A stretch of 24,006 nt of DNA. Origin: a virus. Of the stretch, positions 1 to 20,098 are shown in pieces. Location of the stretch: positions 1 through 24,006 of the IMG/VR virus record IMGVR_UViG_3300025759_000681. The stretch is one strand, 5' to 3'. The position numbers and the translations under genes were made by a program. Position 1 is the stretch's first letter. Each line of letters begins with the position of its first letter. The notes beneath the pieces are model-generated. The model worked only from the letters and a program-made list of their open reading frames with translations, had not been told where the DNA came from and did no database searches.

Positions 1-347
1 CCATCAGCACCAGAAGCAATCAAATCAATATTGACTCCTTCTATTCGAACTCTTCCACTCGGAGCTCTTAGAACTAAATCACCACTAACAGCTTCAACAT
101 ATACACCAGGTATATCTTTACCAACATTATCACCCGATCTTACTTGAAATGATCCAGGAGAACGACAAATAGTTCCATATTTACGAGAATCTGAACCAGA
201 GGAATCCAGTGTAATATAATGATTTTTTACTCTTCCATTTCTGAGTAGAACCGCAGAGAGAGTATTATCCTGAGTAAGGTGACCAAATTTTATTTCACCA
301 TCTGATGTACCATATCTAACAGTATGATAATTTTCCAACTTTGCCAT
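1..347 (-). CDS. Partial beta-rich tail spike/hub-tip protein (gp5 C-terminal-like)
   Basis: The gene runs off the left edge, leaving about 115 N-terminal residues. It starts MAKLENYHTVRYGTSDGE. The visible end has short alternating beta-strand repeats, for example VYVEAVSGDLVLRAPSG followed by RVRIEGVNIDLIASG, a pattern seen in beta-helical or beta-prism spike parts. The ATG overlaps the stop of the gp5-like gene by one base (TAATG), so the two are probably translationally coupled in the hub operon. In T4 the beta-helical needle is the C-terminal part of gp5; here the neighbour has only the OB fold, so this gene may supply the spike. That role is inferred from position and strand periodicity. 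It could also be another baseplate or fibre-associated protein. No signal peptide or membrane segment is seen. Confidence 0.5.
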   Translation of the reverse strand, partial: MAKLENYHTVRYGTSDGEIKFGHLTQDNTLSAVLLRNGRVKNHYITLDSSGSDSRKYGTICRSPGSFQVRSGDNVGKDIPGVYVEAVSGDLVLRAPSGRVRIEGVNIDLIASGAD

Positions 348-19537: not shown

Positions 19538-19563
19538 AAAAAAAAGGGAGACTTGTGTCTCCC
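19538..19563 (-). terminator. Intrinsic terminator closing the riboswitch mini-operon
   Basis: On the minus strand GGGAGAC pairs with GTCTCCC (19546-19563) around the loop ACAA, followed directly by eight T. It lies 33 bases past the stop of the DUF4278-like peptide and touches the ATG of the next gene, so it may work as an attenuator for the ThyX operon. Confidence 0.88.
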
Positions 19564-19596
19564 TAGTCTATCAGATAACTGAACATGTGACAAGTG

Positions 19597-19764
19597 TCAC
19601 TTATTGTAAGTACGACCACGGTAACAAAATGTACCATGGGTTTCACTTGACTTCATACAACGGGTATCATACTCAACACCACGATATGCAGTGTGTGTAA
19701 TCTGTGCGTCGTGAAGAGCAGATGCTTTGTTGATCTGCTTCTTGATCATTTGAAGTGTGTTCAT
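19597..19764 (-). CDS. DUF4278-like small peptide
   Basis: The 55-residue peptide begins MNTLQMIKKQINKASALHDA and has two YRG elements, TAYRGVEYDTR and FCYRGRTY. The paired YRG-x-x-Y pattern resembles DUF4278, a cyanobacterial and cyanophage family of unknown function. A Shine-Dalgarno (TAGGAG) lies nine bases upstream. It is the second gene of a riboswitch-controlled mini-operon and ends 33 bases before a strong terminator. Two cysteines frame the C-terminal YRG, but no metal motif is evident. Confidence 0.8.
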   Translation of the reverse strand: MNTLQMIKKQINKASALHDAQITHTAYRGVEYDTRCMKSSETHGTFCYRGRTYNK

Positions 19765-19806
19765 GAGTTTACTCCTAAAGAAATGGGATGTTTAATCGCC
19801 GTTCCT

Positions 19807-19974
19807 TCAGTCGTGTGCGTCCCAATACCAATCACATTGTGGTGCTGAGTCCTTAAGGGTCTCAACCAACTCAACCTTAACTACATTGCTAAGGTTATTA
19901 TTGTTCTCGATCTTCAGCATGATAGCATCAGTTTGAGTACAGGTGAGTGTTGTATAGAATAATACTTCTAGCAT
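19807..19974 (-). CDS. Small peptide directly under a glutamine-type riboswitch
   Basis: The 55-residue product begins MLEVLFYTTLTCTQTDAIML and ends with ETLKDSAPQCDWYWDAHD. I recognise it as a short conserved cyanophage peptide, which fits the short proteins that give the Downstream-peptide RNA its name. An N-terminal strand, a helix and a C-terminal DWYW-DAHD end are seen; Cys12 and Cys47 could form a disulfide or bind metal. There is no usual ribosome site before the ATG, so initiation may depend on how the leader folds. The next peptide starts 42 bases downstream. The function is not known to me; the riboswitch suggests a link to nitrogen or glutamine status. Confidence 0.8.
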   Translation of the reverse strand: MLEVLFYTTLTCTQTDAIMLKIENNNNLSNVVKVELVETLKDSAPQCDWYWDAHD

Positions 19975-19979
19975 GGGAT

Positions 19980-20063
19980 CAACGGAACCGTTGCGCGACT
20001 TACTTGCGTCCTGCGGTGTCTTTTTAGGCTGTGTGCCTAACGACTACCGTTTGGATGAACGAT
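19980..20063 (-). ncRNA. Glutamine-type riboswitch (Downstream-peptide / glnA RNA motif)
   Basis: On the minus strand the leader starts ATCGTTCATCC (from 20063) and later holds GGACGCAAGTA (20011-20001), the two conserved blocks of the glnA/Downstream-peptide RNAs. Between them a long imperfect hairpin forms: CGGT with ACCG, GTC with GAC, and TTAGGC with GCCTAA around ACACA. Downstream, CAACGG-TT-CCGTTG (19993-19980) is a perfect inverted repeat. Its AACG could alternatively pair with the 5' CGTT to make a pseudoknot. The ATG of the peptide is only five bases past this element. These RNAs are known from marine cyanobacteria and cyanophages and bind L-glutamine. The match is from memory of the consensus, not from a covariance search. 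Confidence 0.8.
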
Positions 20064-20069
20064 AGGTCT

Positions 20070-20098
20070 ATTATAGACCACTATCTCTATTTAGTCAA
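20070..20098 (-). promoter_or_regulatory. Strong sigma-70 promoter for the riboswitch operon
   Basis: The minus strand reads TTGACT (20098-20093), a 17-base spacer, then TATAAT (20075-20070): one mismatch from consensus with ideal spacing. The start point would be near 20063, so the transcript begins with the riboswitch itself. The -35 box touches the stop codon of the upstream gene. A host-type promoter implies early expression. Confidence 0.88.

Follow-up and report, generated by a model that had tools for sequence, protein, structure and literature searches.

Background

The main targets reported for glutamine riboswitches in cyanobacteria are DUF4278 genes, which are switched on, and the N-terminus of IF17, an inactivating factor of glutamine synthetase, is likewise covered by DUF4278 (PMC6316151). 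The crystallised aptamer of the glutamine-I (glnA) class, RF01739, reads CGUUGA-P2-CGGAAGUAAGGCCC...GGGCCUGAAGCAACG (PMC5393176), the glutamine-II (Downstream-peptide) class, RF01704, is a pseudoknot (PMC6698751), and tandem glutamine riboswitches are frequent, with 157 doublets reported (PMC9481103). Our search of the open-licence literature turned up no account of genes within a riboswitch aptamer.

Here we analyse a small locus in a virus record of 24,006 bases, the whole of which is called the window in the following. The window also carries genes for tail, baseplate, single-strand DNA-binding, exonuclease, PhoH-like and thymidylate synthase proteins, and 410 cyanophage records match the locus at the DNA level. 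We consider it likely that the element at this locus is a split riboswitch of the glutamine-I (glnA) class, enclosing a single gene here and two in some relatives.

Results and discussion

Locus layout

Promoter, leader, ORF1, ORF2 and terminator all lie on the minus strand. They are given below together with the strands of the proposed aptamer.

20070..20098, minus strand: sigma-70-type promoter, TTGACT-17-TATAAT, agreeing with the consensus at 11 of 12 positions
20079-20065, minus strand: inverted repeat GGTCTATAATAGACC around the -10 box
20057..20061, minus strand: S1, CGTTC, 5' strand of P1; CGTTC in 145 of 146 relatives
20009..20055, minus strand: P2 hairpin, TCC...GGA, enclosing a structured insert here and ORF0 in 42 relatives
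20001..20008, minus strand: CGCAAGTA, junction and 5' strand of loop E
19996..20000, minus strand: AGTCG, 5' strand of P3
19980..19993, minus strand: inner hairpin S2:S3, CAACGG-TT-CCGTTG, compensatory relative to the GAACG..CGTTC of most relatives
19974..19978, minus strand: TCCCA, 5' strand of H5, ending at the A of the ORF1 start codon
19807..19974, minus strand: ORF1, 55 aa, MLEVLF..., phrog_504, nested in the proposed P3 loop
19820..19824, minus strand: TGGGA, 3' strand of H5, within the last codons of ORF1 (Trp-Asp)
19809..19813, minus strand: CGACT, 3' strand of P3, whose final T opens the ORF1 stop codon TGA
19806..19808, minus strand: GAA, 3' strand of loop E, overlapping the ORF1 stop codon
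19800..19805, minus strand: S4, GGAACG, 3' strand of P1
19772..19780, minus strand: CTTTAGGAG, ORF2 ribosome-binding site, where CTTTAG could tentatively pair with the CTGAAG of the loop-E strand
19597..19764, minus strand: ORF2, 55 aa, phrog_545, DUF4278-like YRG peptide, the probable regulated gene
19538..19564, minus strand: intrinsic terminator, stem-loop followed by T8

These parts agree with an earlier, sequence-only reading of the same DNA, which had named a near-perfect sigma-70 promoter (found at 20098-20070), a leader with two conserved blocks (CGTTCATCC from 20061 and GGACGCAAGTA from 20011), a peptide of the MLEVLF type (ORF1, 19974-19807), a DUF4278-like peptide (ORF2, of the YRG type) and a strong terminator (19564-19538). 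The number of promoter-like sites in the region is by count alone not above chance (11 against 10.0 expected); the arrangement TTGnnn-15..19-TAnnnT, with its end 5-16 nt upstream of the aptamer, is conserved in 88 of 101 distinct relatives, compared with 2.7% after mononucleotide shuffling. A terminator-like site is found 3' of ORF2 in 72 of 143 relatives as against 0.3% in shuffles.

The inverted repeat around the -10 box occurs with varying sequence in most relatives, where a perfect stem of at least 5 is seen in 87% of 100 upstream regions and in 21.5% of shuffled ones. A TAAATA-like motif of the T4-type late promoter was present in 99 of 101 upstream regions, which is a raw count with no shuffle baseline. 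Early and late starts may both be possible at the locus.

Two proposed aptamer halves on either side of ORF1

For the comparison we collected 153 distinct loci, 146 of them with S1, by a pattern that asked for part of the block behind ORF1; loci gathered by protein similarity show this block too. Across them both halves of the proposed aptamer are conserved in position. The 5' half (CGTTCATCC...GACGCAAGTA-AGTCG) lies upstream of ORF1, and the 3' half, CGACT-GAA-GGAACG at 19813-19800, includes the TGA stop codon of ORF1 and runs on past it, leaving about 190 nt and ORF1 in between. When joined, the halves read CGUUCA-P2-CGCAAGUAAGUCG...CGACUGAAGGAACG and match the core of the crystal construct feature by feature (PMC5393176). 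The CGUUCA 5' block and the P2 hairpin are present at 20061-20009 of the window and the junction block GACG-N-AAGUA is present as GACGCAAGTA, while the loop-E GAA, P3 and GGAACG are present only across ORF1; P1 is invariant and P3 is mismatched in one subtype. The junction block reads GACGCAAGTA in 116 of the 153 loci and GACGGAAGTA in the other 37, and it should be noted that the collecting pattern itself required this block.

The sequence-only reading took the 5' leader alone to be the sensor controlling both peptides, and overlooked the 3' block of the motif, GACTGAAGGAACG at 19812-19800. This part of it is not supported, as the leader has neither the loop-E GAA strand nor a partner for P3, its apparent P1 partner S2 covaries with S3, and the lacking half is found where ORF1 ends and just beyond. 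Its statement that all parts of a glutamine switch are present is right in that the parts exist and the RNA appears to be of the glutamine-riboswitch class, and wrong as to the layout, which we read as an aptamer split around ORF1.

Rfam searches

The same reading had suggested the Rfam covariance models as a check and a missing hit as ground for rejection, and our search of the window, at the gathering threshold and at E<=10, indeed returned no glutamine riboswitch. We offer the split as the explanation: there is apparently no match in the window because the aptamer is split beyond what the model can align. In five relatives the leaders scored exactly at the locus, with 24-30 bits against the glutamine-I model (cut-off 35) and 20-30 bits against that of glutamine-II (cut-off 33), so that the gathering cut-off of RF01739 (35 bits) is reached neither in the window nor in these relatives. 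For RF01704 the scores below 33 bits in relatives and the lack of a match in the window go along with non-standard pairs in the second helix of the model. Because the Rfam cut-off is not reached and glutamine binding is something that we infer, we regard the element as a variant of the glutamine-I riboswitch whose membership of RF01739 is provisional. The sub-threshold score is a limit on detection rather than on function.

Comparison across relatives

The helix H5 links the bases before the ORF1 start codon, joined in the second subtype by the A of that codon, to the last codons of ORF1. All four pairs are made in every one of the 146 loci (UCCC:GGGA, UCUA:UAGA, CCCC:GGGG and others), compared with 83.7% for shuffled partners, and in 8 loci the CCCC:GGGG form turns the WDA of ORF1 into WGA. 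The inner hairpin S2:S3 changes jointly from GAACG:CGTTC to CAACG:CGTTG in 8 loci, the window included, which are scattered over the tree; the swap takes 8 parsimony steps with no single changes, and S1 and S4 are unaltered. That S2 and S3 change together and are not followed by S1 and S4 argues against pairing of S1 with S2 and of S3 with S4. Shuffles and parsimony remove relatedness or recombination incompletely; the conserved split layout, H5 and S2:S3 are strongly supported.

These data also bear on the layout of the sequence-only reading, in which an ordinary short glutamine riboswitch wholly in the leader, with S1:S2 as its P1, controls ORF1 and ORF2 together and the block behind ORF1 is incidental. 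The glutamine-I scores of the five leaders would agree with such a switch, as would the S1:S2 probability above 0.5 in 17 of 146 full-length foldings. On the other hand, no GAA loop-E strand and no P3 come before S2 (the sequence there is e.g. CGC or CTC, and never GAA in the collected loci), and the change of S2 along with S3 leaves a C.C mismatch to S1 in the 8 loci, including the window. Further, the block behind ORF1 consists of exactly the missing parts at every collected locus; part of it was asked for by the pattern, and the loci found by protein similarity agree. We regard a switch confined to the leader as unlikely.

In the split aptamer, positions 1, 2, 4 and 5 of P3 remain paired and show some covariation. 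The second subtype has a C.A or A.A mismatch at position 3 and, in 35 of its 44 loci, A.C at position 6. S1 and S4 are nearly invariant and hence leave no covariation signal for P1. In 20 loci with a TAA stop the loop-E GAA becomes AAA. At this strand CT[GA]AAG could pair with CTT[CT]AG at the ORF2 ribosome site, where TTTAG stands in each of the 19 TAA loci whose arm can be recognised; most loci of the second subtype lack the pairing, and many changes are seen along the tree. We suggest that it might be the expression platform.

A second gene in the P2 loop

Of 155 distinct loci, 49 seemed to be without a nearby S1. If the aptamer is able to enclose genes, S1 would be expected upstream of another ORF, and in 42 of 42 loci with enough upstream sequence CGTTCA[TC]C (CGTTCATC) was found approximately 205-230 nt upstream, with the ORF0 start codon behind it; simple arithmetic gives a chance expectation of about 0.04 for such distant matches. 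ORF0 is a small ORF in the P2 loop (phrog_6471 in its marine form) and mostly ends at or near GACG. The P2 helix closes around it with pairs that covary and often include its start codon (UCUCAUG:CAUGAGA, UCUUAUG:CAUAAGA, UCCUAUG:CAUAGGA and UCUCAC:GUGAGA). Three isolates, Syn9, P-HM2 and S-TIM5, have both ORF0 and ORF1 along with the RNA elements, and in Syn9 the full form corresponds to gp196, gp197 and gp198. A form with ORF0 only, having a long P2 and a compact P3, was sought and not found, where the gap range of one search (185-215) covers only marine ORF0 lengths.

ORF0 has two cysteines and ORF1 has two invariant ones, and a weak profile alignment of the two covers 40 columns and matches both cysteines (hhalign E 1.6e-4, probability only 50%). 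Such a resemblance could point to two tandem aptamers with an ORF in each P2 loop (S1-[P2/ORF0]-S2 and S3-[ORF1]-S4) that act as a cooperative pair, the present layout being descended from a duplication. The block order does repeat (CGTTCATCC, ORF, GGACGCAA, GGAACG), and doublets of this riboswitch are as frequent as mentioned above. Against a tandem pair, both units are incomplete, with no GAA before S2 and no AGUA before S4, and the mismatches in S1:S2 and S3:S4 are uncompensated in 8 loci; the foldings below speak against it as well. We find a functional tandem quite unlikely, and a tandem duplication may be the evolutionary origin of the element.

Folding predictions

We applied RNAalifold to cores from which the ORFs had been cut out and to which short loops had been added. 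The nested outer layout of the split aptamer, with S1:S4, P2 and S2:S3, was returned unprompted. In the marine set S1:S4 had a probability of 0.98-1.0 and both S1:S2 and S3:S4 had 0.0, with energies of -17.2 kcal/mol for the nested and -9.2 kcal/mol for the tandem arrangement. P3 reached about 0.5 in the marine set and was not predicted in the second subtype.

In full-length RNA with the ORFs in place and without ligand, H5 (0.74) and S2:S3 (0.65) are predicted, and P1 has a mean probability of 0.02 and exceeds 0.5 in 2 of 146 loci. The rare occurrence of P1 in these ligand-free models fits a ligand-dependent helix, without demonstrating one. The same foldings would also be obtained if start-stop pairing alone regulated the translation of ORF1 and ORF0 and the glutamine aptamer were a relic that no longer binds its ligand, as H5 and S2:S3 are predicted there and S1:S4 is not; the sub-threshold Rfam scores point the same way. 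A relic is hard to reconcile with the ligand-core blocks CGUUCA, GACG-N-AAGUA and GGAACG, which are almost invariant even across 200 nt of ORF0, or with an ORF2 that remains in a family controlled by glutamine riboswitches, and we hold it to be very improbable.

The peptides

Purifying selection acts on ORF1 (median dN/dS 0.19), whose predicted fold, helical with a mean pLDDT of 80, gave no informative structural match (best E 3.0). ORF2 of the window scores 22.8 bits against DUF4278 (PF14105), below the gathering score of 25.3, and 23 of 23 relatives match this family at E<=0.1 (best E 3e-6); the structure model of ORF2 is weak (pTM 0.33). A YRG peptide of this kind stands behind S4 in 145 of 147 loci, and in the viral contigs L187, L190, L200 and L214 compact aptamers without ORF1 directly precede ORF2 homologues of 60-64% identity. 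We suggest that ORF2 is probably the regulated gene.

The roles of the two peptides had earlier been called undescribed, which is partly out of date, as DUF4278 genes are the main glutamine-riboswitch targets and the domain covers the N-terminus of IF17 (PMC6316151). Given this target class and the link to IF17, the accompanying guess that the phage takes over host nitrogen control seems a reasonable one.

Proposed mechanism

We propose that the host polymerase would start close to S1 and make the 5' half of the aptamer, then ORF1 and then the 3' half, whose loop-E strand shares part of the ORF1 stop codon. With glutamine present and ribosomes off ORF1, the pairs S1:S4 (P1), AGUCG:CGACU (P3) and AGUA:GAA (loop E) would form and make ORF1 the loop of P3, within which the S2:S3 hairpin and the start-stop helix H5 would cover the region of the ORF1 start codon. 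Aptamer folding would free the ribosome-binding site of ORF2, with ORF1 (and ORF0 in the P2 loop, where present) staying closed, and ribosomes finishing ORF1 would cover S4 and thereby prevent the folding. S1, the GACGCAAGTA block and the GAAGGAACG block of the full-length RNA would be the parts expected to be protected by glutamine. We infer the long-range closure of P1 and P3, the binding of glutamine, the direction of the regulation and a reciprocal control of ORF1 and ORF2.

Further, we speculate that the loops of the aptamer might serve as gene sockets, P2 taking ORF0, P3 taking ORF1 and the inner hairpin an endonuclease gene. The start regions of the nested genes would pair with their own ends, and glutamine binding would close the nested genes and open the downstream one, toggling two sets of peptides oppositely. 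We put this forward tentatively, as a possibility somewhat less likely than not.

Insertions and occurrence

In phage RN05-S (contig L369, 747-1319) a gene for a 191-aa endonuclease lies exactly in the S2:S3 loop, where contig L058 (approximately 2325-2490) has a C-terminal endonuclease remnant. In L071 (2709-3280) a gene that we class as HNH-type on its sequence, rather than by a family search, lies in an extra CGTTCATCCCATCAG...CTGAATGGGACGCAAGTAGAGC unit.

The hairpin inside P2, GGTAGTCGTTAGGCACACAGCCTAAAAAGACACC (20049-20012 of the window, minus strand), recurs in 24 viral contigs, among them L345, L351, L353, L358, L360, L361, L364, L365, L366 and L368. Outside P2 it is found directly behind apparent tRNA 3' ends and also elsewhere. 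Its inner stem TAGGC:GCCTA changes to TATGC:GCATA, and it has no Rfam match in the window.

Compact aptamers of the glutamine-I type are common in the viral contigs L095-L214. For 110 of them that are followed by an ORF of at least 30 codons, the ORF is a YRG peptide in 42 cases, and many of the others are different short peptides of unknown function.

Scanning species genomes of bacteria and archaea, about 85,000 in all, for the split pattern gave three contigs. One of these, L335 (3102-3305, from a Saprospiraceae MAG), has a complete element of the phage type and is probably a misbinned cyanophage contig. The two other contigs look like chance matches inside coding sequence.

Significance and comparison with known systems

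Riboswitches are usually described in front of the gene that they control, and a sensor that encloses genes would change the strategy by which they are searched for; standard models miss the element in a lineage where the locus, judged by the 410 phage records, is common. The element ties the amino-acid sequence of a protein C-terminus to RNA pairing, and suggests how a phage might read the nitrogen status of its host through a switch with two outputs. As the full form is present in an isolate, Syn9, direct laboratory tests are feasible.

The element resembles the glutamine-I riboswitch (RF01739) in CGUUCA, P2, GACG-N-AAGUA, the loop-E strands AGUA/GAA and GGAACG, and in its position upstream of a DUF4278 gene, a target that the class switches on in cyanobacteria (PMC6316151). 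It differs in having its halves about 190 nt apart around ORF1, in some relatives also around ORF0, and in scoring below the cut-off. With glutamine-II (RF01704) it shares sequence blocks of the ligand site, small-peptide targets and the 20-30 bits scored in relatives, whereas the loop-E strands and P3 found here are those of glutamine-I. Repeated CGTTCATCC and GGAACG blocks in one transcript are reminiscent of tandem glutamine riboswitches, but neither repeat is complete alone here and the inner strands pair mutually. ORF2 has the YRG-type DUF4278 motif in common with IF17 and other DUF4278 proteins; unlike these it has only 55 aa and a sub-cut-off score of 22.8 bits.

Group I introns can carry endonuclease genes in peripheral loops. 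The present element likewise has genes in the loops of a structured RNA, including endonuclease genes within the element in phage RN05-S and L071. In contrast to such introns, the element resembles a metabolite sensor, Rfam found no intron core in the window, and the genes usually nested in it have only 50-73 codons.
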